NCBI GenBank assembly: GCA_022827945.1
Contig: JAJEIT010000007.1
Coordinates: 1 to 64,000, forward strand
DNA length: 64,000 nucleotides
Direction of reading: 5' to 3'
From: Dehalococcoidia bacterium
Lineage (GTDB): Bacteria > Chloroflexota > Dehalococcoidia > Tepidiformales > Tepidiformaceae
In this document: positions 589-21,668 of the stretch, piece after piece
How the letters are laid out: the number at the start of each line of letters is the position of its first letter
Numbering within the stretch: position 1 is the first letter of the stretch
Notes under the pieces: model-generated
Told to the model about the DNA's origin: nothing
What the model saw: the letters and a program-made list of their open reading frames with translations, nothing else
Database searches by the model: none
Made by a program: the position numbers and the translations under genes

Positions 589-631
589 ACCTCGGGGAGG
601 CGACGGCGCGCGGGCGCAGGCCGGAGTGAGG

Positions 632-1993
632 ATGGACATGCGGCGAATTGCCATCGTCGGCGGAGGCGTATCCGGGCTTGGCGCCGCCTGGGCGCTGAAC
701 CATCACCCCGATCGCTTCGACTTCCGGCTGTTCGAGGCCCAGGACCAGATCGGCGGGAACGCCATCACGGCCGACATGCCCCAGGGCGGTGGCGGCTCCG
801 TCCCCTTCGACATCTCCGTCACCGCCTGTATTCCCTCCATCTACCACCACATGGTGCTGCTGATGGAGCGCTTCGGCATCGACCTCGTCGATACCAGGTT
901 CAACTACAGCGTGAAGTACCAGGGCCGCCTCTACGCGCACGACTTCGACTCCGACATCCGGGAGCAGCTACAGCCCGAAATCGCGAAATTCCAGGGCCTC
1001 CTCAGGCGCCTGCACCGGATCGGCTGGCTGACCCGGGCACAGTCGAAATTCCTGAACGCCCTCAACCCATTCAACTACATAACCATGGGAACGGTGCTCA
1101 ACCTGGGCGGCTTCTCCGGGGACTTCCGCTACAAGGTCCTGAAGCCGATGTTCGTCAACTTCCTGATGGCGACGAACGTCTTCGACATGCCCGCCGCGCT
1201 CTTCTCGCGCTACCTCGAGTTCTTCGACATCGAGACCGCCACGCCCATGCAGACGTGGGACCAGGGCACCCGCCGCATCTACGAAGAGCTGTCGGCCGGC
1301 TTCCGCGACAAGATCTCGCTCAACCGGCCCGTCCGAAAGGTCTACCGGGAAAAGGGGCGCGTCGTCGTCGAGGACGCGGAAGGCGTGCGGGAGACGTTCG
1401 ATGACGTCATCTTCGCCTGCAACGCCAACCAGACCCTGATGCTCCTCGACCAACCCACCTTCCTTGAGCGCTCCATCCTCTCGTCGGTCCGCTACGAGAG
1501 CGAGCTTCACAACCACACGGTGGTCCACTCCGATGCCTCCGTCCTCCCAGACAACGAGACGCAGCCCCTCACGACGCGGAGCAACTACATCGAGCAGTAC
1601 GGCGCGAGGCCGGACAACTACGAGATCACCTACATCATGCACAACCAGCAGCCGTGGGCTCGGGAGTCCGACAAGCCCTGCCTCGTGACCTACAACCCGA
1701 TCAGCCCCATCGACGAAGGCAAGATCGTGAAGCGGTGGTGGTTCCAGCACATCGTCCACGACGTTCGCCACGTGGCGCTGACGGTCAACATCTTCCGCTT
1801 TGTCCAGGGCAGGCGGCGGACGTGGCACTGCGGAGCCCACACCCTCGTGAATGCCCAGGAGACCTGCTTCGTGACGGGCCTCGCCGCCGCCCGTCAGCTC
1901 GGTGCGGACTACCCGTTCGAGGACGAGGCCGCGAGGCGCTCATTCAACTACTACGGGAGCATCCTCTACGGCTGGCGATTCCGGAAGGCGTAG
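632..1993 (+). CDS. FAD/NAD(P)-binding oxidoreductase (amine-oxidase-like, COG2907 type)
   Basis: About 453 residues. The N-terminus carries a Rossmann dinucleotide-binding motif, IAIVGGGVSGLGAAWAL, followed by an acidic residue at the end of the second strand (LFEAQDQIGG), typical of FAD-dependent flavin amine oxidase/phytoene desaturase-like enzymes. The rest resembles the predicted NAD/FAD-binding proteins often found beside fatty-acid or lipid-modifying genes. Starts are possible at GTG 626, ATG 632 and ATG 638; GGAG at 623-626 favours ATG 632. The 3' end overlaps the convergent Rieske oxygenase gene by 54 bp. In this neighbourhood a role in oxidising or desaturating a polycyclic lipid is reasonable, but the substrate cannot be read from the sequence. 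Confidence 0.85.
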   Translation: MDMRRIAIVGGGVSGLGAAWALNHHPDRFDFRLFEAQDQIGGNAITADMPQGGGGSVPFDISVTACIPSIYHHMVLLMERFGIDLVDTRFNYSVKYQGRLYAHDFDSDIREQLQPEIAKFQGLLRRLHRIGWLTRAQSKFLNALNPFNYITMGTVLNLGGFSGDFRYKVLKPMFVNFLMATNVFDMPAALFSRYLEFFDIETATPMQTWDQGTRRIYEELSAGFRDKISLNRPVRKVYREKGRVVVEDAEGVRETFDDVIFACNANQTLMLLDQPTFLERSILSSVRYESELHNHTVVHSDASVLPDNETQPLTTRSNYIEQYGARPDNYEITYIMHNQQPWARESDKPCLVTYNPISPIDEGKIVKRWWFQHIVHDVRHVALTVNIFRFVQGRRRTWHCGAHTLVNAQETCFVTGLAAARQLGADYPFEDEAARRSFNYYGSILYGWRFRKA

Positions 1994-3070
1994 TTCCGCA
2001 TCCGGGTGTCGAACCGCCCGATCGAGTTCGGGCAGCGGATCTGCCGCGCCCGTCGGGGCGGGATAGAACTGGGTGCAGTAGTCCCGGAACATCATGATCT
2101 CCCCATCGGCACGATTGAGCCGCGGTCGTGGCCGGTATTGCTTGCGGCTCCAGATCACGACGTCCTGCAGCACGTCCATCTTCTGCATCGGGCCGATGAA
2201 CCGGTTGATGACGCCGGCGCGCAACCCATGCGGCAGAAAACCCGCTCCTGCGACGAACCGCTTCGGCCTGGGCCCCACCTTCACCTGGGACGCCAGCGAC
2301 ATGTCGATCAGGGTGCCGTCCACGGGAGTTGCCAGCACCCACAGGCGCATCTCCATGGGGATCGAGCGCTCCCGCACCTGCACGAAGGAGTAGCCCAGCC
2401 CGAAGATGCGGGCGTGGGCGGAGAAATCGAGTGTGAGCCTGGCGATCCCGGCGATCTTTCGGACCGTCCGGAAGTCCCAACGGCTCACCAGAAGGGTGCC
2501 CTCCACCTCGACCGGGTGCGTCCGGTCCACGTTGTCGTAGCCGTGCACGTAGCGCAGGTGGGCGATGTCCACCGAGTTCTCCGTGGTCTCCTGCGGGTGC
2601 CCGGGGAAGCGCAGGGTCTGGACGCGGAGGTCGCTCCAGCCTTCCTGGTCCACGGCCTCGTCCGGCACGCTCCACTGCGACGGCCGTCCCTCGATCCCCG
2701 ACCAGGCGAAGATCAGCCCGGCGATCTCTTGCGTCTCGAAGACTCGCAGCCTCGCCGATCGCGGCGGGGCGGCGAAAGGCGTGGCCACGCACTGCCCGGT
2801 GGCGTCGAACTCGAAGCCGTGGAAGGGACAGACCAGCCGGCCCTCGCAGACGCGTCCCCCCGCGGCCGGCCCGAGCTCGGACCCGAGGTGCGGGCAGACC
2901 GACTCGGCGACGCAGATGCGCCCGTCCTCGTCACACCAGGCGACGACCTGTTCGCCCATCCAGGTCTTCTGCATGAGCCCGGCCTGTTCGATGGCCTTGC
3001 GACTCTCGACGAAGTACCAGCCCTCGGGATACGGGGAGGGCAGCGCCGTCCGCTTCAGCTCGGTCTGCAT
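1940..3070 (-). CDS. Rieske non-heme iron oxygenase (Neverland/DAF-36 or sterol-demethylase-like)
   Basis: 376 residues. The Rieske [2Fe-2S] ligands are visible as CPH (C59, H61) and CPFHG (C81, H84). The mononuclear iron site is ENSVDIAHLRYVHG, with D168, H171 and H176 as bridging Asp and facial-triad His. The PYPEGW start and the ligand layout resemble oxygenases acting on sterols and steroids: Neverland/DAF-36 cholesterol 7-desaturase, KshA and bacterial SdmA. ATG 3070 was chosen because GGGGG lies about 10 bp upstream; the longer open frame to 3337 lacks family similarity. No ferredoxin or reductase partner is encoded nearby. It is divergent from the GPP34-P450 gene and overlaps the FAD gene tail-to-tail. 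Substrate assignment is inference from neighbours. Confidence 0.88.
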   Translation of the reverse strand: MQTELKRTALPSPYPEGWYFVESRKAIEQAGLMQKTWMGEQVVAWCDEDGRICVAESVCPHLGSELGPAAGGRVCEGRLVCPFHGFEFDATGQCVATPFAAPPRSARLRVFETQEIAGLIFAWSGIEGRPSQWSVPDEAVDQEGWSDLRVQTLRFPGHPQETTENSVDIAHLRYVHGYDNVDRTHPVEVEGTLLVSRWDFRTVRKIAGIARLTLDFSAHARIFGLGYSFVQVRERSIPMEMRLWVLATPVDGTLIDMSLASQVKVGPRPKRFVAGAGFLPHGLRAGVINRFIGPMQKMDVLQDVVIWSRKQYRPRPRLNRADGEIMMFRDYCTQFYPAPTGAADPLPELDRAVRHPDAELRLPESPAVEDAPVVVE

Positions 3071-3130
3071 CCCTACCCCCTGACCCCGCCTCGTCTGTTG
3101 ACGGTTGATCCCGGCCCAGTTTCTCCATCC

Positions 3131-3136
3131 AGAATA
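3131..3136 (-). promoter_or_regulatory. Possible -10 element for the Rieske gene
   Basis: The minus strand reads TATTCT here, about 60 bp upstream of ATG 3070 in the 241-bp divergent intergenic region. No convincing -35 hexamer is seen. On the plus strand TTGCCT (3214-3219) and TACACT (3239-3244) could serve the GPP34-P450 gene, but their 19-bp spacing is poor. Confidence 0.25.
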
Positions 3137-3311
3137 CGAAAGTCTCCCGTCTGGCTCATCCCCCGGCACTGGTCCGTTGGTGCGCTCGCTCACGTTGTTT
3201 ACCGGCCTGGCGATTGCCTCTGCCCGCATTCGTTGGGATACACTGTTAAGGAGCTCGGTGCGGGAATTTCGGCCCTCAACAGGCTCGTAATCGGGCGATG
3301 GACTGGGGCTC

Positions 3312-5339
3312 ATGACACTCGCTGAAGCAGAACCCACGACTCAGACCCTGACCCTGACCGAGGAGCTCCTCTTGATGCTCCTCAACGAGGAGAGCGGCTA
3401 CTTCCACCAGGTACCCGGCTGGGACTTGAACTGCACCGTCGTGGGCGCTGTGCTCGCCGAACTGTCCCTCGCTTCTCGCATCGATACCGATGTGGAGTCG
3501 CTGATCCTGCTGGACAGCACCGAGACGGGTGACCCCATCCTGGACCCGATCCTGAAGGATATCGCCGCTGAGTCGGAGCAGCGCAACGCCCAGTACTGGA
3601 TCGAGCGGCTTGCTCCCCGGGCGGAGTCGATCATCGACCTCACGCTGGAGCGCCTGGTCGACCTGAAGATCCTGGAACACCACGATGGCGAATTCTGGAC
3701 CCTGTCCCGTACCGCCCGCCACGCGGATGTCTTCGGCGGGTCCGAAGACGGGACGGCTGCCGAGTTCGTCAGGACCCGTATCAGCAAGGTCATCTTCGAC
3801 AACGTGATTCCCGACCCCCGGGACGTCATCATCATCGCCCTCGTCAACGCGGTCGATGTTCTCCGCTTCATGTTCCAGCTGGATGACGAGACGGAAGAGC
3901 GGATCGAACTCATCTGCAGGCTCGATCTGATCGCCCGCGCCATCGTCGATGCCGTTGGCCAGACCGTTGCCGGCCCCCTGCTGCGCCGCCCCGCCCTGAC
4001 CAGGCAAATCCCCAGGGTGCCGATGCACAAGCTCATCCGCAATCGGAACGCCCGCAAGGGGAACCTTCCCGCCCTCTTTGCGGACCTTGCGAAAGAGTAC
4101 GGCCCCGTATTCGAGCTACGCCCGCCGTTCGTCGAGCCCATGATCTTCCTGGCCGGGCCCGAGACCAATCGCTGGGCCCACCGCCAGGGGCGTATGCACC
4201 TGAGGGCCAGGGACTACCTCAACGACTTCGAGAAGATCTACGGCGCTTCCGGAATCCTGCCCGCTCTCGACGGGGCCGACCACTTCCGCTTCCGCAAGGC
4301 CCTGCAGCCCGGCTACTCCCGCGCGCGCCTGGAAGGTCAGCTCGACAGCCTCTACCGCGACACCCGCGGGCACATGGCGACCTGGAATGTCGGAGAGTCC
4401 TATCCGGGCAGCGAATTTTGCCGCGCGCTGATCAACGCCGAGCTCTCACCCCTCATGATCAGTGTTGAGTCCCAGGATCTCATGGGCGACCTGATCAAGT
4501 TCAAAGAACGAGCGCTGATGACGCACCTCGTCAAGGTTCTGCCCAAGTTCCTGCTCAGCACGCCCGGGATGAAGCGCCACGCAGCCGCCATCGACACGTT
4601 GCTGGAGCGCGTCGAGACCGTGCATACCCCCGCCCAGCGGGCGGGGTGTCCTCGCGACCTCGCGGACGACCTGCTCAGCCTGCACGCCAGCGACCCCCAG
4701 TTCCTTCCCGGGTCGAACCTGCGGTTTGCGCTCTCCGCTCCCCTGATCGCCAGCGTGTACCTCGGTGATGGTCTGGCTTTCGCCCTCTACAACATGGCAA
4801 CGCACCCCGATCTCTACGAGCGGATCCGGCAGGAAGCCGACGCCCTGTTCGAGAACGGCGATCCGGAAGGCCGCGACATCAGCACGGACGTGATCGACAC
4901 CACGCACCGCCTCATCATGGAGTCCATGCGCATGTACCCCATCGTCCCGGTGTCGATTCGGAACGTGATGAACGCCTGCGTGGTGGAGGGTTACAACATC
5001 TCGGAGGGAACGCGGATCAACATCGCCCAGTCGGCCTCCCACTACATGGAGGACATTTTCCCTGACCCGTTCACGTTCGATATCGACCGCTACTTGCCGC
5101 CGCGGGATGAGCACCGTCATCCCGGCTACGCCCCGTACGGCCTCGGTACGCACACGTGCCTCGGATCCCGCTGGATGGAGCTGCAGCTGTCCATCAACCT
5201 GCTGATGCTCGCGCACTACTTCACGATCGAGGCGACCCCCTCGGAGGGTCAGGCGCCCATCAACCCGTTCCCCTCGCTCTCCCTCGGAGGCAAGGCGAAA
5301 TTCCACATCACCGAACAGCGCCGCGAGATCCCAGCCTGA
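3312..5339 (+). CDS. GPP34 (GOLPH3-like) - cytochrome P450 fusion protein
   Basis: 675 residues, two domains. Residues about 14-220 match the GPP34/GOLPH3 fold: TEELLLMLLNEESGYF start, W37 in VPGWDL, and IPDPRDVIIIALVNA around 166-180, regions used by eukaryotic members to bind phosphatidylinositol-4-phosphate. Residues about 233-670 are a P450: ExxR is E537-S-M-R540, and the heme loop PYGLGTHTCLGSRW places the axial thiolate at C616. By alignment the conserved I-helix acid/threonine region reads ASVYLGDG (about 480-487), so the usual Thr seems replaced by Tyr483. The P450 should oxidise a lipid; the GPP34 part may anchor it to membrane or lipid. The gene lies between Rieske and SMT-like genes, suggesting a sterol/triterpenoid substrate (inference). 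No redox partner is nearby. Confidence 0.9.
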   Translation: MTLAEAEPTTQTLTLTEELLLMLLNEESGYFHQVPGWDLNCTVVGAVLAELSLASRIDTDVESLILLDSTETGDPILDPILKDIAAESEQRNAQYWIERLAPRAESIIDLTLERLVDLKILEHHDGEFWTLSRTARHADVFGGSEDGTAAEFVRTRISKVIFDNVIPDPRDVIIIALVNAVDVLRFMFQLDDETEERIELICRLDLIARAIVDAVGQTVAGPLLRRPALTRQIPRVPMHKLIRNRNARKGNLPALFADLAKEYGPVFELRPPFVEPMIFLAGPETNRWAHRQGRMHLRARDYLNDFEKIYGASGILPALDGADHFRFRKALQPGYSRARLEGQLDSLYRDTRGHMATWNVGESYPGSEFCRALINAELSPLMISVESQDLMGDLIKFKERALMTHLVKVLPKFLLSTPGMKRHAAAIDTLLERVETVHTPAQRAGCPRDLADDLLSLHASDPQFLPGSNLRFALSAPLIASVYLGDGLAFALYNMATHPDLYERIRQEADALFENGDPEGRDISTDVIDTTHRLIMESMRMYPIVPVSIRNVMNACVVEGYNISEGTRINIAQSASHYMEDIFPDPFTFDIDRYLPPRDEHRHPGYAPYGLGTHTCLGSRWMELQLSINLLMLAHYFTIEATPSEGQAPINPFPSLSLGGKAKFHITEQRREIPA

Positions 5340-5415
5340 CGAGCTGGTCTCTTCGGACTCCACTCGCCAATTTGTCAGCTGGCCACAGACGACAGGCACG
5401 GGAGAACGCCGCGCA

Positions 5416-6450
5416 GTGCAGCTAAAGACACTCCTGAAAGAGTTGAACCGCTCCTACCGCGGCTCTGACGTCACGGGTCGCGTGCGAGACTTCGACAAGT
5501 GGACTGACCTCGCGGCGATGGGCGTTGATGGGTCGAGCGACTACTCCCACAGCCAGACGGCGAAGGAGTACTACGATTTGTGTACGCCGTTCATGGTCTG
5601 GGGCTGGGGCGAATCCCTGCACTTCGCACCACTTAGGCCCACCGAGAGCGTGGAGCAATCCCAAGCACGGCATCAGCGGCTGATGATGTCCAAGCTGGAA
5701 TTGCAGGAGGGCATGACCGTGATCGACGTTGGATGTGGAGTCGGCGGCCCAATGCGGCGGGTTGTACGTGAGGCTGGTGTTCGCGTTTCCGGAATCAACA
5801 TCAACGAAATCCAGTTGGCCATGGCAAAGCGGTTGACCGCTGAGGCGGGCCTCGACCATATGGTCGATTACGAGACGTGCAGTTTCATGGACATGAACGC
5901 CATACAGGACGGCGCTTTTGACCGGGGCTACGCCATCGAGTCAACCTGCCATGCGCCAGACAAGCAAGGCGCATTCGCCGAGATCTTCCGGGTCCTGAAG
6001 CCCGGAGCCCTCTTCTGGGGACAGGAGATGTGTCTGACGGAGAGGTTCGATCCGAACGACAACCGCCACAAGACCATCAAGCAAGAGCTCATGCACGGTA
6101 TTGCGCTGAACGACATCGCGACGTTTGCGGAAGTGAATCACGCGCTTGAAGCGGTTGGGTTCGAGGTCATCGAAGGTGTGGACCGGGATGTCCAGGAAGG
6201 ACCATCCACCCCCTGGTATCAGCCCATGGAGAGCCGGAAGGGAACGCTGGAGGGCGCCTTGCGCAGGCTCCCATGGGGCCGCAGAGCGATGATCGCAGGA
6301 CTAAAGCTGACCGAAGCGGTGCGGCTGTTTCCGGCGGGCTCTGCGGAAGTCGTCCGGCTGTTGGATCGGACCGCTGATGCCTACGTCGCAGGCGGTAAGA
6401 CGGGAATCTTCACACCGCTCTACTGTTTTCTGGCTCGAAAGCCCCTCTAG
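5416..6450 (+). CDS. Sterol C-24 methyltransferase-like SAM methyltransferase
   Basis: 344 residues, GTG start with GGAG 11 bp upstream. The SAM motif is VIDVGCGVGGPMR (102-114). Several signatures are those of Erg6/SMT rather than generic methyltransferases: the GWGESLHFAP block (63-72), YAIESTCHAPD (172-182), PWYQP (266-270) and the C-terminal GGKTGIFTP with FLARKP (326-343), i.e. a complete sterol-MT C-terminal domain. SMTs transfer methyl to C-24 of a sterol side chain. The related tocopherol methyltransferases lack the C-terminal block. Codon use is clearly less GC-rich at third positions than in neighbours (many TTG, GTT, GGA, CAA), suggesting transfer. It follows the P450 by 76 bp and converges with the RND exporter 10 bp away. 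Activity on sterols is a family-based inference. Confidence 0.88.
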   Translation: MQLKTLLKELNRSYRGSDVTGRVRDFDKWTDLAAMGVDGSSDYSHSQTAKEYYDLCTPFMVWGWGESLHFAPLRPTESVEQSQARHQRLMMSKLELQEGMTVIDVGCGVGGPMRRVVREAGVRVSGININEIQLAMAKRLTAEAGLDHMVDYETCSFMDMNAIQDGAFDRGYAIESTCHAPDKQGAFAEIFRVLKPGALFWGQEMCLTERFDPNDNRHKTIKQELMHGIALNDIATFAEVNHALEAVGFEVIEGVDRDVQEGPSTPWYQPMESRKGTLEGALRRLPWGRRAMIAGLKLTEAVRLFPAGSAEVVRLLDRTADAYVAGGKTGIFTPLYCFLARKPL

Positions 6451-6460
6451 CCCCTGGCGC

Positions 6461-8947
6461 CTACGACGACGAGTCCTGCCGCTGCTCGTACTGCTCGTGC
6501 ACGCCCTCGATCGCTTCGTCCAGCTCTTCCCACACCCGCTCGACCATCGAACGGAGCCGCATGTTCTGATACGCGCCCCAGACGGTCATCGCCGGCGGCA
6601 CCAGCAGGATGGACACGATCAGCGCGTACGCGATCGTGATCGCCGCTGTGATGCCGAACTCCTGCGAGGCGAGCGTAGGCGAAAGCACCAGCGCTCCAAG
6701 TCCGAGGGCTGTCGTCAGCGCCGACCCGAGCAGCGCCGAACCCGTCGTCGCCAGCGTGCGGATTGCCGCCTGCTCGGGATTTCGCAGGTGGGCGAACTCC
6801 TCCCGGTAGCGATGAATCACGTGGATCGTGTAGTCGACCCCGATTCCGATCGAAAGCGCCGTGATGATCGCCGTGACCAGCGTGTAGGGAATGCCGATCA
6901 GGGCCATCGTGCCCAGTACCCAGATGAGCACGAACACAACCGGCGCCACCGCGATGAAGGCCAGCACCGGCTGCCGGAGGGTGACCCAGAAGAAGATCGC
7001 GAGGATGCCGAACGCCATCGCGATGGTCGTGCTGATCGCCTCGGTCTGGCGCCCGGTGATCTCGTCCGTGACCGCGATGGAGACGATGCTTCCGGACGTG
7101 GCCGTGACCGTACCGTCTTCGCCGAACCAGAGGGCCTCGAGGTCCTCCTGGAGCGCTCTCGTCGTATCCGGATCACCCGAGTAGGCGGGGAACTGGACCA
7201 GCAGTGAGTCGATACCGTCGGGATTGTCGACCAACGCATGGGCGACGGCAGGGTCCATCTCCCTGAGCCTGTCGAGGAACTCCTGCAAGAGCTCGGGATC
7301 GAATTCCACCCCCGCCGAAGCCTCGCGGAAGAGCGCCGCCAGCTCTGGGTCATAGTTGTCGCCCGGCTCCCCGCTATCCGTGGTCCAGTCGCGAACGATC
7401 AGCTCATATGACATCTGGATGGGGCCTGCCGCCGCCCGGGGACGGCGCTCCGGATCTTCGAAGGCCTCCCTCAGGTCGTGGAGGTTCAGGTACGTGCGGG
7501 TTTCCGTTGCTTCCGCGCTTACCAGGACCGTGACCATCTCCGTCGAACCTCCGACGGCCGTCTCGAGAGTCTCGATGTCCTCCAGGACGGTGCCGACCCG
7601 GGGCAGGATGTCGCGGATGTCGAAGCCCGATTCGAGCCTGGTCGCAGCGAATCCGAGACCGACGGTGATCGCCAGCACGACGATGAAGTAGGGCGCAGGC
7701 TGGCGCGCCACCGATGTCCCCAGTACCTCGGCGAGGCGTCCGATTCCCGGCAGTGCGGCGGAGACCGGTCGGGGCGGCGTCAGCTTGCCCCGTGACTCGC
7801 GCCGCCGGTCGATGATCGTTCGTGCGGCCGGGATCAGCGTGAGCATGACGATCAGGCTCAACCCGACACCCAGAGCCGCGACGATGCCGAAGTCCCTTAC
7901 CACGGAGATCGGTGAGAACAGGTTCGCCAGGAGGCTCACGATGGTCGTGACGGCCGCCAGCACGAGCGGAATCGTGACGTTCCGCAATCCCGTCCTGACT
8001 GCGTCCACCACCGAGGTGCCGGCAGTCCGCTGCTCGCGGTAGTGCGAGACGGCCTGGATGGCGTAGTCCACCGTGAGGCTGATCACGATGATCGGGACCA
8101 TTGCCGTGAGCGAGCTCGGCGGGCCGATGAGGCCGAGCGCGTCCGGCCCCAGCCAGCCTTCCGCGCCGATGACCCAGATCAGGGAGATCAGCAATCCCGC
8201 CAGCGTGAGCAGGAGGTCGGAGAGCGTGCGCAGGAACACCAGGATCAGGGCGAGAATCAGGACCAGCGCCAGCCCGATGAGCGGCACCATCCCCTCTTCC
8301 GTGGCCTTCTTGTACTCGTCCTCGATCACCACGGGCGAGACGCTGCTCACCCGCAGCGGACCTTCGTCGTCGGCCGCCAGCTCATTGATCGACCGTTCAG
8401 CTTCCTGGATGCGCTCGTCGCCGGTGTCGATCAGCCTGATGGTGGCGATCGCGACGGCCGTGCCGTCCTCATCGGTTCCGGTCATCTCGGCAAGCGCCGC
8501 CGCGATTTCGGGCACGCTGCGGGCGGACTCGATCTCCGCCTGCGTGACCGACTCGAAGCTGTCCGTCTGGAGCACCGATCCGAGCAGGAACGTGGGCGCG
8601 ACGACCGCATCGCCGGGCGCCAACAAGCCACCGATCGCCGGGTCGCCGAGGATGCCGTCCACCAGGGCGTCCATCTGTGAGAGCCCGTCGGGCGTGAATG
8701 CCTCTCCCCGGAAGACGAGGGTCACGACTCGGACGTCGCCCGACTCCGAGAAGAGCTCGTCGATCTCGTTGATCGCATCGGCAACGTCGTTCCCGGGGGG
8801 AAGAAACGCCAGCGCCGCGCCCTCGATCACTTCCGCGCGCCGTCCCGCTCCCAGGGCCAGCACGACCGTAATGATGAGGAGGATGGCGATCGTGATATAC
8901 GGGCGAACGGTGACCAGCCAGCTCAGCCTCTCGAGAACACGGCTCAT
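6461..8947 (-). CDS. RND/MMPL family transporter (HpnN-like lipid exporter)
   Basis: 828 residues with the duplicated RND/MMPL architecture: N-terminal TM (about 17-34), large periplasmic loop, a TM bundle at about 220-375, a second loop, and a second bundle at about 625-785. The proton-relay aspartates sit in matching sites, D294 in LTVDYAIQ and D705 in IGVDYTIH. Such single-polypeptide RND proteins move lipids; HpnN (hopanoids) and MmpL (mycolate glycolipids) are examples. The hydrophilic C-terminal tail is rich in Glu and Gln. It converges on the SMT-like gene with a 10-bp gap. Export of the locus's modified lipid is the natural guess, but not shown. No Shine-Dalgarno precedes ATG 8947; a -10-like hexamer lies 8 bp upstream. 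Confidence 0.9.
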   Translation of the reverse strand: MSRVLERLSWLVTVRPYITIAILLIITVVLALGAGRRAEVIEGAALAFLPPGNDVADAINEIDELFSESGDVRVVTLVFRGEAFTPDGLSQMDALVDGILGDPAIGGLLAPGDAVVAPTFLLGSVLQTDSFESVTQAEIESARSVPEIAAALAEMTGTDEDGTAVAIATIRLIDTGDERIQEAERSINELAADDEGPLRVSSVSPVVIEDEYKKATEEGMVPLIGLALVLILALILVFLRTLSDLLLTLAGLLISLIWVIGAEGWLGPDALGLIGPPSSLTAMVPIIVISLTVDYAIQAVSHYREQRTAGTSVVDAVRTGLRNVTIPLVLAAVTTIVSLLANLFSPISVVRDFGIVAALGVGLSLIVMLTLIPAARTIIDRRRESRGKLTPPRPVSAALPGIGRLAEVLGTSVARQPAPYFIVVLAITVGLGFAATRLESGFDIRDILPRVGTVLEDIETLETAVGGSTEMVTVLVSAEATETRTYLNLHDLREAFEDPERRPRAAAGPIQMSYELIVRDWTTDSGEPGDNYDPELAALFREASAGVEFDPELLQEFLDRLREMDPAVAHALVDNPDGIDSLLVQFPAYSGDPDTTRALQEDLEALWFGEDGTVTATSGSIVSIAVTDEITGRQTEAISTTIAMAFGILAIFFWVTLRQPVLAFIAVAPVVFVLIWVLGTMALIGIPYTLVTAIITALSIGIGVDYTIHVIHRYREEFAHLRNPEQAAIRTLATTGSALLGSALTTALGLGALVLSPTLASQEFGITAAITIAYALIVSILLVPPAMTVWGAYQNMRLRSMVERVWEELDEAIEGVHEQYEQRQDSSS

Positions 8948-9142: not shown

Positions 9143-11389
9143 ATGAGCAGCGAACCGTATTTCCAGGGTCATATCGGGCGATACACGAGCGAGTCGACGC
9201 CGTGGTGGCCCGAGCCGCCGAAGCCGGCCCCGGGCAGCCCCAACGTCGTCTTCGTCATGCTCGACGACGTCGGGTTCGGCCACCTTGGGTGCTACGGCTC
9301 CTCGATCGATACGCCCAACATGGACCGGCTCGCGGCCAACGGGCTTCGCTACCGCAACTTCCATACCACCACCATCTGCTCGCCGTCGCGCGCCTGCCTG
9401 CTGACCGGACGGAATCACCACTCCGTCGGCATGCGCACCATCTCCAACTACGACACCGGCTTCCCCAGCGCGCGCGGCGCCATCTCGCCCAGCGCCGCCA
9501 CGATCGCGCAGATGCTCCAGCAGACCGGCTACAACACGGCCGCCTTCGGCAAATGGCACCTCGCCCCCATGGCCGACGGCTCCGCCGTGGGGCCATTCAG
9601 CGGCTGGCCCCTGGGCAAAGGCTTCGAGCGCTACTACGGTTTCCTCGACGCGCTCACCGACCAGTTCGCCCCCGAGCTCATCCTTGACAACCGCCACATC
9701 CCCTCGCCCTCCGACCCGGACTATCACCTGAGCGAGGCCATCGTCGACGAGGCCATCGAGTTCGTCCGCGATCAGACCTCGCTTTCGACCAGCCCCTTCT
9801 TCCTGTACGTCGCCTTCGGGGCCTGCCACTCGCCCCACCAGGCCCCGCAGGAGTACCTCGACAAGTATCGCGGCAAGTTCGACCAGGGGTGGGATGCCAC
9901 GCGTGAGGCCTGGTTCCAGCGGCAGCTCGAGCTCGGCATCGTCCCCGAAGGGACGCAGTTGGCCCCGCGCAATAACGGTGTCCCCGCCTGGGACGACCTC
10001 TCCGAGGACGAGAGAGCCGTGCGCGCCCGCCTGCAGGAGGCGTTCGCGGCCATGCTCGACCACATGGACCACCAGATCGGACGCATCGCCGACTACCTTG
10101 AGGCGATCGACCAGCTCGACAACACCCTCTTCGTTGTCGTCTCGGACAACGGCGCCAGCCAGGAGGGCGGCCCTCTCGGCGTCTTCAACGAGGGCCGGTT
10201 CTACAACCAGATTCCGGCCGACGAGGGCTACAACCAGGCCAACATCGACGAGATCGGCGGACCCAGGTCCCACACGAACTACCCGTGGGGCTGGGCGCAG
10301 GTGGGGAACACGCCCCTGAAGCGGTACAAGCAGAACACCCACGGCGGCGGCATCCGTGACCCGCTCATCATCCACTGGCCCGATCGCATCAAGGATGCGG
10401 GGGCGATCCGTCCCCAGTTCCACCACATCTCGGACATCGTGCCCACGGTGCTGGAAGTGCTCGGGGTCGAGGCGCCGGAGATGCATCAGGGTGTTCCCCA
10501 GCTCCCCATCCACGGCACGAGCATGCTCTACACGTTCGACTCCGGCGACGAGCCGACGCGCAAGCGCAACCAGCACTTCGAGATGTTCGGCCACCGCGGC
10601 ATCTGGCACGACGGCTGGAAGGCCGTCACCTTCCACGCGCCGGGGACCACCTTCGAGGAGGATGTGTGGGAGCTCTACCACCTCGATGAGGACTTCTCCG
10701 AGTGCAACGACCTCGCCGAGTCCGAGCCGGAGAAGCTCAAGGAGATGATCGAGCACTGGTGGATCGAGGCGGCCAAGTACGACGTGCTGCCGCTCGAAGA
10801 CGGGCTCCGCGGAGCACGGGGCACGCCGCCCAAGAAGGGCTCTCCCCAGGACCGCACGAGCTTCGTCTACCGCCAGGGCATGGCTCACACGCCGACGAAC
10901 GCCGCCGCCGACGTCCGCAACCGCGACTACACCATCACCGTCGAGCTGACGCGCCAGAGCGAGGCGGACGAGGGCGTGCTCATCGCGCACGGCGGGATCA
11001 CCGGCGGCTATTCCCTGTTCATCAAGGACAACCGCCTGGTGCACGAGTACAGCTACGTCGGCGAGCGTTACCGCATCGTCTCCGACACGGCGGTTCCGAT
11101 CGGCGAGTCCGTGGTGACGCTCGACTTCACCAAGACTGGCGAGCTGCAGGGATCTGCCGTCCTCACGATCAACGGCCGCCAGGTGGGGAGCGGAGATCTG
11201 CCCGCGACCCTCGGCGGCATGTTCGCGATCGAGGGTCTCGATGTCGGGCAGGACCTGTATACGCCCGTGAGCGAGGACTACGAGGTGCCGTTTGCCTTCC
11301 CCGGCGTGATCGCCGCGGTGCGCATCGAGCTCGGGTCGCAGACCCTCGATCGCGAGGCGGAGCTGCGGGGCCGCGTCATCGCCCAGTAG
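9143..11389 (+). CDS. Arylsulfatase (formylglycine-dependent, S1 family)
   Basis: 748 residues. Hydrolyses sulfate esters; belongs to the alkaline-phosphatase superfamily. The N-terminal metal site is visible in NVVFVMLDDVGFG (D41, D42). The formylglycine motif is CSPSRACLLTGR, with C79 as the residue converted by FGE. GKWHL, and VSDNGASQEGG with metal-binding D-N, follow further down. Beyond about residue 530 there is an extra ~200-residue C-terminal region, predicted beta-rich, common in long arylsulfatases. No signal peptide is evident, so it may be cytoplasmic; the FGE gene nearby supplies activation. Downstream lies the TSUP exporter, which could remove sulfite or related anions. Substrate unknown. 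Confidence 0.93.
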   Translation: MSSEPYFQGHIGRYTSESTPWWPEPPKPAPGSPNVVFVMLDDVGFGHLGCYGSSIDTPNMDRLAANGLRYRNFHTTTICSPSRACLLTGRNHHSVGMRTISNYDTGFPSARGAISPSAATIAQMLQQTGYNTAAFGKWHLAPMADGSAVGPFSGWPLGKGFERYYGFLDALTDQFAPELILDNRHIPSPSDPDYHLSEAIVDEAIEFVRDQTSLSTSPFFLYVAFGACHSPHQAPQEYLDKYRGKFDQGWDATREAWFQRQLELGIVPEGTQLAPRNNGVPAWDDLSEDERAVRARLQEAFAAMLDHMDHQIGRIADYLEAIDQLDNTLFVVVSDNGASQEGGPLGVFNEGRFYNQIPADEGYNQANIDEIGGPRSHTNYPWGWAQVGNTPLKRYKQNTHGGGIRDPLIIHWPDRIKDAGAIRPQFHHISDIVPTVLEVLGVEAPEMHQGVPQLPIHGTSMLYTFDSGDEPTRKRNQHFEMFGHRGIWHDGWKAVTFHAPGTTFEEDVWELYHLDEDFSECNDLAESEPEKLKEMIEHWWIEAAKYDVLPLEDGLRGARGTPPKKGSPQDRTSFVYRQGMAHTPTNAAADVRNRDYTITVELTRQSEADEGVLIAHGGITGGYSLFIKDNRLVHEYSYVGERYRIVSDTAVPIGESVVTLDFTKTGELQGSAVLTINGRQVGSGDLPATLGGMFAIEGLDVGQDLYTPVSEDYEVPFAFPGVIAAVRIELGSQTLDREAELRGRVIAQ

Positions 11390-11508
11390 CGGAAGTAGCC
11401 GGGGCGGCGGGGGTATCGTGCGGTTGTGACCCGCCTGCGCCGTTTGTCCGCTGCGTTGTTCGGTAGCAGGGTCGACCGTGCCGGACAGCGCGTGGCAGGG
11501 AGCCCGAC

Positions 11509-12336
11509 GTGCTAGAGGCGGTCCTCCTCGTCCTGCTTGGGCTCGGTGTGGGCGTCTTCGGCGCGATCATCGGCGCCGGAGGGGGCTTCCTCCTCGTCCC
11601 CATCCTGCTGCTCGCTTACCCCGACCGCGACCCCGCCACGGTTACGGCCATCTCGCTCGCCGCCGTCTTTGCCAACGCGACCTCCGGCGCCATCGCCTAC
11701 GCCTACCAGAAGCGCATCGACTTCCGCAGCGGTATCTGGTGGGCGCTGGCCGCCATCCCGGGCGCGCTGGGCGGCGCGCTGCTCGTGGGGATACTCCCGC
11801 GGGACGTCTTCGTGGTGGTGTTCGCGGTGGCGCTGGCGGGTGTTGCGACGCATCTCATCCTGCGCCGCGAGGCCACCGTCCTGCGCGAACCGATCACGGG
11901 TCGCGGGGCGATCTCCCGCCGCATCAGGGATCGCGAAGGGCAGAACTTCTTCTACACCTTCCGCCTCTGGCACGGCCTCTCGATCGCCGGGACGATGGGG
12001 TTCGTCTCCGGCCTGCTGGGGGCCGGCGGCGGCGTTCTCCAGGTGCCGCTCCTGACGATCGTCCTGCGCTTCCCCGTCCACATCGCGACCGCCACCAGCC
12101 AGTTCGCCTACGCGCTCATCGCCCTCGAGGCGACGGTCGTGCACGCCGTGACCGGCGGCCTCCACCTGGATGAGCACCTCCTCGAGGCAGGGTTCATCGC
12201 CATCGGCGCCGTCGTCGGCGCCCAGGCCGGCGCCCGCGTCGCCTCGAGGGTCCGCGGCGCCGTCATCCTGCGAGTCCTCTCGACGACGCTGCTGCTGGTG
12301 GTGGCGTGGCTCGTGGTGGACACGTTCGTCCGCTAG
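11509..12336 (+). CDS. TSUP family transporter (TauE/SafE-like sulfite/anion exporter)
   Basis: 275 residues, GTG start with GGGAG 5 bp upstream. Two repeats of four hydrophobic segments, each containing the family's glycine-rich turn: GAIIGAGGGFLLVP near the N-terminus and GLLGAGGGVLQVP near residue 170, diagnostic of the sulfite exporter TauE/SafE family. Members export sulfite, sulfoacetate or other organosulfur anions, or act as permeases. Its place between a sulfatase and FGE suggests handling of sulfur released from sulfate esters. It converges with the FGE gene with a 15-bp gap. Confidence 0.9.
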   Translation: MLEAVLLVLLGLGVGVFGAIIGAGGGFLLVPILLLAYPDRDPATVTAISLAAVFANATSGAIAYAYQKRIDFRSGIWWALAAIPGALGGALLVGILPRDVFVVVFAVALAGVATHLILRREATVLREPITGRGAISRRIRDREGQNFFYTFRLWHGLSIAGTMGFVSGLLGAGGGVLQVPLLTIVLRFPVHIATATSQFAYALIALEATVVHAVTGGLHLDEHLLEAGFIAIGAVVGAQAGARVASRVRGAVILRVLSTTLLLVVAWLVVDTFVR

Positions 12337-12351
12337 CGCCGGTGCCCTGCC

Positions 12352-13377
12352 CTACAGGTCCCGGACGCAGCGGAAGCCGGAGTTGGCCGTCGACGAGTCC
12401 GGCGTGTTGCCGGTGCGCGCCGCTACCCGGTAGCGGTTGCAGTACGACACATGACACAGGAACGACCCGCCCCGCTGCACACGATGCGTGCCCGTGGGCG
12501 GCCCGGTGGGGTTGTCGCGCGTGGCTGCGTCCTCCTGCCGGTGGTAGTCCGGGCTGAACCAGTCGGCGGTCCACTCCCAGACATTCCCCGAGCAGTTGTA
12601 GAGCCCGTAGCCGTTCGGCTCGAAGCTGTCGACGGGAGAGGTTCCCGTGAAGCCGTCGGCGCCCGTGTCGTGGTCGGGGAAGGTTCCCTGCCAGATGTTG
12701 CAGCGATGCTCCCCGCCCGGCTCCAGCTCGTCGCCCCACGGGTAGACGGCCTGCTCGAGCCCGCCCCGGGCGGCGTACTCCCACTCCGCTTCGGTCGGGA
12801 GGCGGGCGCCGGCCCACTCGCAGTACGCCTGCGCGTCGTTCCACGAGACGTGCACGGCGGGGTGCTGCTCGCGGCCGCGGAGATCGCGGCCGGGGCCTTC
12901 CGGCAGGTCCCAGCGTGCGCCGGGCACGGCCAGCCACCAGGGGGCCTGCACGACTGCGTTCGTCTTCTCCAGGCGCCGCGCCATCTGTCGTGAGAGGTGT
13001 TGCCGGAAGACGAACGACCACCCGAAGCGCTCAGCCTCGGTCACGTAGTCGGTGGCCTCGACGAAGGCCGCGAACTGGGCGTTCGTGACGGCGTGCACGT
13101 CAATGGCGAACGGCTTGAGCGTCACCTCGCGTACCGGCCCCTCGCCGTCTTGATCGGGTTGGCCGTTCGGCGGCGCGCCCATCAGGAAGGCGCCACCCGG
13201 CAGCTCGACTGCACCGTTGCTGGACGGTGCGGGCTCGGGCCGGATGCCGGCCGTTTCGGCGCGCCGGCTCGACCGCTCGGCCTCCCCGGGCGCGGAGTCG
13301 GACCGCGATGGCGCCCAGGAGGTCGTGCTGGGCGTGCAGCAGGCGTCTCCCGGTTCGTGCGTCACCCGCTCCTCCAA
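12352..13377 (-). CDS. Formylglycine-generating enzyme (FGE, sulfatase-modifying factor)
   Basis: 341 residues. Copper-dependent oxidase that converts the Cys of CxPxR in sulfatases to formylglycine. The FGE-sulfatase fold is clear: GGAFLMGAP (61-69), HPAVHVSWNDAQAYCEWAG (172-190), RLPTEAEWEYAARGG (192-206), NVWEWTADW, and RGGSFLCHVSYCNRYRVAAR. The last contains the two active-site cysteines C308 and C313, spaced five apart as in known FGE. An N-terminal DACCTPS stretch is typical of bacterial FGE. TTG 13377 is the longest start; a GTG a few codons in is also possible. Both sulfatases in the window carry CxPxR, so they are its likely clients. Confidence 0.94.
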   Translation of the reverse strand: MEERVTHEPGDACCTPSTTSWAPSRSDSAPGEAERSSRRAETAGIRPEPAPSSNGAVELPGGAFLMGAPPNGQPDQDGEGPVREVTLKPFAIDVHAVTNAQFAAFVEATDYVTEAERFGWSFVFRQHLSRQMARRLEKTNAVVQAPWWLAVPGARWDLPEGPGRDLRGREQHPAVHVSWNDAQAYCEWAGARLPTEAEWEYAARGGLEQAVYPWGDELEPGGEHRCNIWQGTFPDHDTGADGFTGTSPVDSFEPNGYGLYNCSGNVWEWTADWFSPDYHRQEDAATRDNPTGPPTGTHRVQRGGSFLCHVSYCNRYRVAARTGNTPDSSTANSGFRCVRDL

Positions 13378-17120: not shown

Positions 17121-18644
17121 ATGCCCGCTGACACCCGGCCGAACATCGTCGTCATCATGGCCGACCAGCACCGCGCCGACGCGCTCGGCTGCTACGGCAA
17201 CGACATCATCCGCACGCCCAACATCGACCGCCTCGCGGCCGAGGGCGCGCGTTTCGGCCGGGCCTTCTGCCAGGGCCCGTTGTGCATGCCCGCTCGCTGG
17301 TCGCTGCTGACGGGACGCTACGTGCGCGACCACGGCGTGTTCGAGAACGACTGGGACATGACCCAGGACATCCCCAACCTTGCCCAGCATCTCCAGCAAG
17401 CCGGCTACTACACGAGCTGCATCGGCAAGATGCACCTCTTCGCCGACGAGACGCTCGTCTGCGGAAGGCCGGACATGGTGTCCGACCCCAGCGTGACGGC
17501 GCGCTATCGAGCGGTCGGCTTCGACGAGCCGCACCCGGGGCCCGAGAAGAACGGGGTCATGGGCCTCGACTGCGAGTATGTGGACCACCTGAAGGAACGG
17601 GGCCTCTTCGAGATGTATGGGGAGTGGTTCCACCTGCGCGCCTACCCCAAGAAGACGCGTGACCACCTCGGACTCCCCATGTGGTTCCCCGAGTCGACGC
17701 CCCTGCCCAACGACGCCTACCTCGATACCTGGACCGGCCAGCAGGTCGTTGACTGGATCGACGGGTACGACGGCGACAGGCCCTTCTTCCAGTGGGTCGG
17801 GTTCCCCGGGCCGCACGAGCCCCACGACGCCCCCAGCGAGTACGTCGACCTCTACCGCAGGACCGAGATCCCCGTCGGCGAGCGCATTCCCCCGCAGGTC
17901 CCCGAGTCGGGACCGCTCCACACGCTCATGCGCTGGCTCCAGACCACCGCCCAGTGGGAGGGGCTCACCGACGACATCGTCGAGCTCCTCACCCGTTACT
18001 ACTACGCCAACATCACCGCTATCGACGACCAGGTCGGGGCCATCGTCGACGCGCTCGAGCGCAAGGGCATCCTCGACAACACCTGGATCATCTACACCGC
18101 CGACCACGGCGAGATGATGGGCGACCACTGGATGCTCTGGAAGATGCTCTTCTACGAGCAGTCCGCCACCGTTCCCCTCATCATCCGCCCGCCCGCCGGC
18201 ATGGAGGGGCTCAGCGTCGACGGCATCGTCGAGCACGTGGACGTGACCGCCACGATCGAGGCCCTCACGGGCATCGCGCCGCTCCCGGGCAACGAGGGCA
18301 ACTCGCTCATCGGCCACGTCGATGGCAGCGGCGCCGGGCCGACCCGCGAGGTCGCGCACAGCGAGAACTACGGGTTCGGCATGTTCGCGACCGACCGCTA
18401 CAAGCTGGTCGTCTTCGAGGACACGCAGGAGCCGGTCCAGCTCTTCGACTTCCAGGAGGATCCCGACGAGAACTGGAACGTCGTCGCGGATCCCGCCTAT
18501 GCGGACGTGATCGAGCAGATGATGCAGGACCACGTCCGCCCGTTCTTCGAGACACCGCCACAGCGGCCGGCGAGGGGCATCTGGGAGGTCCAGGCCGGGC
18601 GTTACGAAGGCAACCGCCACCTGGCCGTGCGGAACCCGCGCTAG
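17121..18644 (+). CDS. Sulfatase (S1 family, choline-sulfatase-like)
   Basis: 507 residues, preceded by a strong AGGAGGAA site. The metal site NIVVIMADQHRAD (D15, Q16) and the formylglycine motif CMPARWSLLTGRY, with C55 as the modified residue, are present, followed by GKMHLF and YTADHGEMMGDH (metal-binding D, H). There is no signal peptide. It resembles COG3119 sulfatases acting on small sulfate esters. It sits directly after the two importer permeases on the same strand, so the imported molecule may be its sulfated substrate (inference). FGE at 12352-13377 would activate it. Confidence 0.93.
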   Translation: MPADTRPNIVVIMADQHRADALGCYGNDIIRTPNIDRLAAEGARFGRAFCQGPLCMPARWSLLTGRYVRDHGVFENDWDMTQDIPNLAQHLQQAGYYTSCIGKMHLFADETLVCGRPDMVSDPSVTARYRAVGFDEPHPGPEKNGVMGLDCEYVDHLKERGLFEMYGEWFHLRAYPKKTRDHLGLPMWFPESTPLPNDAYLDTWTGQQVVDWIDGYDGDRPFFQWVGFPGPHEPHDAPSEYVDLYRRTEIPVGERIPPQVPESGPLHTLMRWLQTTAQWEGLTDDIVELLTRYYYANITAIDDQVGAIVDALERKGILDNTWIIYTADHGEMMGDHWMLWKMLFYEQSATVPLIIRPPAGMEGLSVDGIVEHVDVTATIEALTGIAPLPGNEGNSLIGHVDGSGAGPTREVAHSENYGFGMFATDRYKLVVFEDTQEPVQLFDFQEDPDENWNVVADPAYADVIEQMMQDHVRPFFETPPQRPARGIWEVQAGRYEGNRHLAVRNPR

Positions 18645-21011: not shown

Positions 21012-21668
21012 ATGCTGAGATTCGCCGAAGAGATCATTCTGCTCCTGTTGCGTGACGAGGACGGCACCTTCGTCCACGTGCCCAACTGGTCGATGGACCG
21101 TGCGATTGCCGGCGCCGTCCTCATGGACCTCGCCCTGGAGAACCGCATCGACACGGACCTCGAGAGCCTCACCCTGGTCGACTCCACTCCTATCGGCGAC
21201 AGCCTCCTCGACCCCACCCTTGCGGAGATTGCTTCCGACGAGACCCGCGAACCCCGTTACTGGGTCGAGAAGGTGGCCCAGCGCGCCCCCGAGCTGCGCG
21301 AGGAGGCCCTCAAGCGCCTGGTGAGCGGCGGCATCCTCGAGCGCCAGGACGACCGCTTCCTCTGGGTCTTCCGCTCCCGCCGCTATCCCATGGTCGATGG
21401 CAAGGCCGAGCGCGAAGTCAAGCTGCGAATCATGGGCATCCTCTTCAGCGAAGAGATCCCCGACCCGCGTGACGTCGTCATCATCTGTCTCGTCGATGCC
21501 TGCCGCATCTTCAACGAGCTTCTCTCCAAGCGTGAGCTGGAGCAGGTCACGCCCCGCATCGAGCAGGTTCGCAAGCTCGACCTCATCGGTCAGGCCATGG
21601 CCCAGGCCATCCGCGACATCGAGGTCTGGATCACGACCGCCCAGATCGAAGGGCGGATGCTCTACTAG
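21012..21668 (+). CDS. GPP34 (GOLPH3-like) family protein, stand-alone
   Basis: 218 residues. FAEEIILLLLRDEDGTF, W26 in VPNWSM, the LENRIDTDLESL segment and IPDPRDVVIICLVDA match the N-terminal domain of the P450 fusion at 3312-5339 along its whole length. The two are paralogues. Eukaryotic GOLPH3 binds phosphatidylinositol-4-phosphate at Golgi membranes; the function in bacteria is unsettled, with membrane lipid association expected. A GGGAGG site lies near 20990. It is followed at once by a methyltransferase gene, as the fusion is followed by the SMT-like gene. Confidence 0.88.
   Translation: MLRFAEEIILLLLRDEDGTFVHVPNWSMDRAIAGAVLMDLALENRIDTDLESLTLVDSTPIGDSLLDPTLAEIASDETREPRYWVEKVAQRAPELREEALKRLVSGGILERQDDRFLWVFRSRRYPMVDGKAEREVKLRIMGILFSEEIPDPRDVVIICLVDACRIFNELLSKRELEQVTPRIEQVRKLDLIGQAMAQAIRDIEVWITTAQIEGRMLY

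Follow-up and report, generated by a model that had tools for sequence, protein, structure and literature searches.

Our analysis of a 64,000-nucleotide stretch of a Dehalococcoidia genome (assembly GCA_022827945.1, contig JAJEIT010000007.1, positions 1 to 64,000, hereafter the window) identifies a compact five-gene module at positions 626-8947. We consider it fairly probable that this locus is a horizontally spread module by which sponge-associated bacteria tailor and export sterols that are mostly acquired from the host or its diet. By Pfam and NCBIfam profiles the module comprises an FAD-dependent oxidoreductase of Amino_oxidase/COG2907-like type (626..1993, + strand), a Rieske non-haem oxygenase with a KshA_C domain (1940..3070, - strand), a cytochrome P450 (3987..5339, + strand) fused behind a GPP34 (GOLPH3-like) domain (3312..3986), the sterol methyltransferase (SMT) family protein SMT1 (5416..6450, + strand) and an RND/MMPL transporter (6461..8947, - strand). 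The five genes are intact and tightly packed, with a 54 bp overlap between the 3' ends of the flavin and Rieske genes and 10 bp between the stop codons of the SMT1 and transporter genes. All five are under purifying selection within the genus, where the ratio of nonsynonymous to synonymous substitution (dN/dS) is 0.07-0.30. The initial annotation, which proposed a sterol tailoring and export locus here, had all five gene classes correctly placed except for the start of the Rieske gene, which lies at about 3070 rather than 3337. Its central idea of sterol- or steroid-type tailoring enzymes joined to a lipid-type pump in a conserved unit stands, although several parts need correction.

The module is conserved well outside the genus. 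A scan with one genome per species yielded 80 SMT1 loci, the best 80 of 413 relatives and many of them cut by contig ends, with 66-87% identity. They fall in Chloroflexota, Gemmatimonadota, Acidobacteriota, Nitrospirota, Pseudomonadota, Actinomycetota, Dadabacteria and Nitrospinota, with further loci in Rhodothermota/Bacteroidota, Latescibacterota, Myxococcota and unclassified bacteria, or around a dozen phyla overall. GPP34-P450 accompanies SMT1 at 67 of these loci, the Rieske gene at 56 and the flavin gene at 40, and all three partners are found together at 37 loci from six phyla, in varying order and orientation. Within the genus, SMT1 is present in six of the eight other genomes (74-87% identity); in five of these six the module genes, or the majority of them, share one contig, while in the sixth, G031, they lie on separate contigs. 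Across 393 Dehalococcoidia genomes SMT1 occurs in 31 and the flavin gene in 32, with both in 29 and either alone in 2 and 3, respectively (Fisher p 3e-38). Since the genomes are related, this value overstates independence and the genus-level test is fairer, where all ten genera with SMT1 fall within the 11 of 226 that have the flavin gene (p 1e-16). The two genes also co-occur unlinked on different contigs, for example in G029, G107 and G209. Recurrence across phyla combined with SMT1 and flavin gene co-occurrence argues that the arrangement is not due to chance, and the expectation that the genes stay together in relatives is borne out both in the genus and across phyla.

Sequence identity between phyla indicates how the module came to be so widespread. 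The inter-phylum median is 72% for SMT1, 80% for the flavin enzyme, 60% for the Rieske protein and 63% for the P450, compared with 54% for the C-terminal part of RpoB. Identity exceeds that of RpoB in 319 of 322 inter-phylum pairs for SMT1 and in 113 of 114 for the flavin enzyme, from which it follows that these genes have moved horizontally. In the SMT1 tree, phyla are interleaved on short branches, and among module loci the flavin enzyme retains 77-91% identity across phyla. Binning error is ruled out for the cross-phylum spread because some carriers are single long sequences, namely a 3.9-Mb Acidobacteria contig (L097), a 2.35-Mb Nitrospirales chromosome (L074) and a 1.59-Mb Dadabacteria chromosome (L120). 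Plasmid searches returned distant homologues only, of no more than about 32% identity among the matches listed, and no mobile-element copy. Every carrier record with a checkable source is a marine-sponge symbiont. Aplysina aerophoba bins 65, 75 and 80 are sponge symbionts (PMC5649159), as are the 'jk18x' metagenome-assembled genomes (MAGs), which derive from Caribbean Ircinia (PMC9531527). The isolate names IRC, RHO, COS and APA would fit the sponge species of PMC8163846, and the SB066x names a public Ircinia ramosa set. Carriers of many phyla are apparently symbionts of marine sponges.

Most carriers appear unable to make sterols. Among 50 module-bearing genomes, ten encode a true oxidosqualene cyclase, 17 have matches at the level of squalene-hopene cyclase only and 23 have neither. 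The 40 genomes without oxidosqualene cyclase include the single-chromosome assemblies L074 and L120, and in most carriers the substrate, if it is a sterol, must therefore be external to the cell. The 23 carriers devoid of any cyclase match are unlikely to supply a hopanoid substrate of their own, and hopanoid tailoring was dropped as an explanation on these grounds. The window genome (2.85 Mb, 95% complete) has a squalene-hopene cyclase beside HpnC/HpnD-like genes (C7) and an oxidosqualene cyclase on C74, which is close to human lanosterol synthase (441 bits) and under purifying selection (dN/dS 0.23). Of a fused epoxidase domain this cyclase retains only about 77 residues. Its head-to-head neighbour is a second GPP34-P450, whose GPP34 part is shortened (L004:6599-10590, G000 C74), and the site looks like a rearrangement junction. 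The window genome has no match to the epoxidase profile PF08491, to CYP51 or to SdmA, and so no recognisable complete sterol pathway. The proposal that the module acts on sterols made elsewhere in the genome consequently fails for most carriers.

Three relatives in the genus, G029, G032 and G033, are differently equipped. Here the cyclase occupies the C-terminal part of a protein of 1115 aa, and human squalene monooxygenase is the best match to the N-terminal domain (E 5e-27). This epoxidase-cyclase fusion is clustered with SdmB-like and SdmA-like genes, CYP51 (341 bits) and a second SMT, SMT2. All ten true oxidosqualene cyclases in carriers (L147-L156) are such fusions and are at least 60% identical across phyla. 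The module could in principle be the late-tailoring part of de novo symbiont sterol synthesis, the early genes of which would lie in other parts of the genome. The coexistence of cyclase cluster and module in these three relatives and in several Nitrospirota, in some of which the two adjoin, favours this explanation, as does the selective constraint on the window-genome cyclase and its position beside a second GPP34-P450. We nevertheless judge it unlikely, given the 40 of 50 carriers in which oxidosqualene cyclase is absent, the presence of the module without this cyclase in G030, G031 and G034, and the want of a recognisable epoxidase, CYP51 and SdmA in the window genome.

That the substrate is a sterol is suggested by the presence in one locus of Sterol_MT_C and KshA_C domains, a P450 and a pump that matches the Sterol-sensing and Patched profiles, and by the relationship of SMT1 to the SMT of the cyclase cluster. 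SMT1 has the SMT domain architecture of a methyltransferase domain followed by Sterol_MT_C (PF08498, 62 bits against a cut-off of 21.7), and shares 41-45% identity with SMT2. In the tree SMT1 forms a single clade with support of 100, apart from and sister to SMT2, and the module lies beside the SMT2-bearing cluster in some Nitrospirota. An Erg6/SMT-type methyltransferase, as first annotated, is thus upheld at the level of family but not of active site. Canonical region I, YEYGWG...FHF, is absent from SMT1 and replaced by FMV[WFY]GW..SLH in nearly all loci; SMT2 retains [FY]E[FY]GW and a few SMT1 members are intermediate. As region I shapes product outcome in yeast Erg6, a changed substrate or position is likely for SMT1. 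In L104 and L129 the SMT1 frames run to about 750 aa, but fusions were rejected because the extra N-terminal part reads as out-of-frame high-GC translation. Elsewhere, L034:7317-12391 (G034 C51) holds a second, partial module in which an intact RND gene and GPP34-P450 flank a broken SMT1. A protein of about 213 aa, SRPBCC/AHSA1-like by reading, recurs near SMT1 at eight loci (L106, L110, L119, L125, L126, L128, L130 and L137), all from Chloroflexota, and may be a lipid-binding partner.

The flavin enzyme belongs to a clade of its own. Aligned over more than 90% of its length, it is about 30% identical to other known COG2907-type FAD oxidoreductases, which lie near DUF1365, whereas the module clade is tied to SMT1 instead. 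Its AlphaFold model was poor (mean predicted local distance difference test (pLDDT) score of 41) and was not used. In an alternative explanation the module substrate is not a sterol but some other lipid of the host or of bacteria, such as another terpenoid or a methyl-branched or cyclopropane lipid, and the resemblance to sterol enzymes is ancestral only. In its favour, SMT1 has lost the YEYGWG motif and also matches CMAS (67 bits), COG2907-like enzymes are often found near DUF1365 and cyclopropane-synthase genes, and any cyclase match is missing from 23 of 50 carriers. The retention of Sterol_MT_C, the KshA_C Rieske and the position of some module copies directly beside a sterol cyclase cluster make this alternative improbable.

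The Rieske protein combines a KshA_C catalytic domain (77 bits) with Rieske and 2-His-1-Asp ligands. The KshA_C domain is matched in 30 of 30 homologues, in all of which CxH/CxxH and the iron ligands H162/H167/D294 (numbering from base 3043) are invariant. Its best solved-structure match is KshA, the oxygenase of 3-ketosteroid 9alpha-hydroxylase (PDB 4qdc, 2zyl), which shares the KshA_C domain and the expected iron ligands. Unlike KshA, it is accompanied by neither a KshB-type reductase nor a degradation cluster in the conserved neighbourhood of the module. Neverland/DAF-36 are presumably kin of the module Rieske, alongside KshA. Against the SdmA profile NF052579 it scores 34 bits with a cut-off of 600, and it has KshA_C in place of VanA_C; the SdmA-like Rieske of the relatives belongs to the separate cyclase cluster, scores 405 bits and carries VanA_C. 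The 'Neverland/SdmA style' of the initial annotation is therefore right in pointing to a steroid group instead of aromatic oxygenases but wrong as to SdmA, and the module Rieske may act on a steroid nucleus. Although the KshA_C domain, and the common use of RND pumps to export toxic amphiphiles, would suit a module that starts sterol degradation or detoxification by KshA-type 9alpha-hydroxylation and P450 side-chain oxidation, with RND removal of toxic sterols, this is the least probable explanation, since an SMT-type methyltransferase is not known to belong to steroid catabolism, yet SMT1 is nearly always found with the flavin gene, and the conserved neighbours include no ring-opening genes, a degradation pathway not having been searched for genome-wide.

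The P450 of the first annotation is confirmed (P450 domain, 128 bits), but its fusion to a full N-terminal GPP34 domain (113 bits, cut-off 29) had gone unnoticed. The fusion is retained in the full-length homologues aligned and its predicted structure is reasonably well modelled (mean pLDDT 81). The N-terminal half is weakly similar in sequence to human GOLPH3 and yeast Vps74 (E 0.002-0.007), and GPP34 is probably a membrane- or lipid-targeting domain that would anchor the P450 at a lipid surface. In the P450 domain ExxR and the haem Cys are conserved, while the I-helix reads 'YLGDxFS' without the usual Thr. The domain is not CYP51, to which matches are partial at 66 bits compared with 341 bits for the cyclase-cluster CYP51, and its best PDB match is another bacterial P450, CYP184A1 (7wzl, 81 bits). 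A structural search with the fusion confirmed the P450 fold only and hardly probed the GPP34 half; the sterol P450s CYP46A1, which is cholesterol 24-hydroxylase, and CYP51 were among its top rows but tied in Z with the non-sterol P450s CYP184A1 and CYP170A1. No description of a GPP34 and P450 combination was found in the open-access papers searched. A stand-alone GPP34 protein is also encoded in the window (21012-21668, + strand) and shares 42% identity with the GPP34 domain of the fusion. It is present in six other genomes of the genus, in several of them about 15 kb away on the same contig, and is a possible source of the fused domain.

The window pump carries Sterol-sensing and Patched profile matches. 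HAE3 (TIGR00921) is its best subfamily, but at 198 bits against a cut-off of 352 it is similar to HAE3 and not an assigned member. The HpnN-type exporter proposed initially is retained as a lipid-type RND pump, though one nearest HAE3 and far from HpnN (TIGR03480, 112 bits, cut-off 752); BstA is more distant still (36 bits, cut-off 1400). The pump shares the MMPL/RND family with these lipid transporters while falling below the curated cut-off of each. At 55 of the 80 loci an RND-superfamily pump is encoded no more than 500 bp from a module gene. In all-against-all clustering three kinds recur. Chloroflexota have an HAE3-like pump, Gemmatimonadota, Acidobacteriota and some others have an AcrB-like one, and a third set has a shorter MMPL protein. 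The strongest case for export comes from these three different RND families next to the module, and the window pump is probably the product exporter in Chloroflexota carriers.

These observations can be combined in a working model, in which a sterol from the host or its diet, not made in the cell, would be the substrate in most carriers. SMT1 would C-methylate this sterol, probably on the side chain. The flavin gene is a near-obligate partner of SMT1, which suggests that its product works on that of SMT1, and reduction or isomerisation of the new side-chain double bond is our best guess by analogy. Methyltransferase and flavin enzyme pairs act in branched-lipid synthesis. The KshA-type Rieske may then desaturate or hydroxylate the sterol nucleus, GPP34-P450, held at the membrane through GPP34, may oxidise the sterol further, and the RND-superfamily pump would deliver the product to the outer envelope or expel it from the cell. 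More speculatively, SMT1 and its flavin partner may perform a side-chain alkylation that canonical SMTs do not, such as C-26 methylation or cyclopropane formation, and some of the unconventional sterols ascribed to sponges may be host sterols reworked by bacteria and exported back to the holobiont, a tentative extension that we regard as doubtful.

Several points weigh against acquired-sterol tailoring and export. The altered region I could mean that SMT1 acts on another substrate or at another position, and beyond the C-terminal domain SMT1 also matches non-sterol methyltransferases of the sarcosine/dimethylglycine type (70 bits). We know of no proven sterol role for the flavin enzyme family, and the P450 fold match fails to separate sterol from non-sterol P450s. 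None of the three partners is present at ten of the 80 SMT1 loci, and in some phyla SMT1 is accompanied by a single partner gene. The suggestion of export derives from gene adjacency, and MAGs can hide genes, which makes the absence of cyclase less certain in fragmented genomes.

The module is distinct from known sterol clusters of sponge symbionts in gene content, in its mainly cyclase-free carriers and in its SMT clade. Kelly 2022 (PMC9531527) describes de novo steroid gene clusters (CSGs) in Ircinia symbionts from ten phyla, which hold a cyclase, CYP51, ERG24 and often an SMT and are matched by the cluster of the three genus relatives. CSG and module are alike in their occurrence in symbionts of many phyla, their horizontal spread and their purifying selection. 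However, the CSG makes sterols de novo, whereas the module is without cyclase, CYP51, ERG24 or SdmA/B and resides mostly in cyclase-free genomes. The window genome itself does not qualify as a CSG carrier, as its cyclase lies elsewhere without an epoxidase domain and CYP51 has no match. The flavin, KshA-type Rieske and GPP34-P450 genes are undescribed in the accessible text of this KEGG-based study. Bacterial SMTs from sponge metagenomes, including that of Aplysina aerophoba, alkylate the side chains of sterols in vitro and the assayed enzymes methylate C-24 up to three times, as reported in Brown 2023 (PMC10070321), where fused squalene monooxygenase/oxidosqualene cyclase (SMO/OSC) proteins are already mentioned. 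These SMTs have family, C-terminal sterol domain and sponge-associated hosts in common with SMT1. The surrounding module is undescribed in the accessible main text of that paper, where neither Rieske nor GPP34 is mentioned, and no description of the module in sponge symbionts was found in the open-access papers searched.

The oldest claimed animal biomarkers rest on sponge side-chain sterols, and it is disputed whether these are of sponge or bacterial origin. If our interpretation is correct, sterol-modifying ability is far commoner among symbionts than cyclase-based surveys suggest, since most carriers have no cyclase and are missed as sterol makers in such surveys. The question of who makes sponge sterols becomes directly testable with named intact enzymes, namely an SMT clade whose active-site region has changed, the GPP34-P450 fusion and an SMT-linked flavin enzyme.

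Beyond the module, two sulfatase-like genes, a TauE-like permease and a formylglycine-generating-enzyme-like gene were recognised by reading at 9143-13377 and 17121-18644 of the window. The block at 9143-13377 is found in synteny next to the module in three other genomes of the genus, and sulfatase-type genes at this position are consistent with use of a sulfated host matrix.

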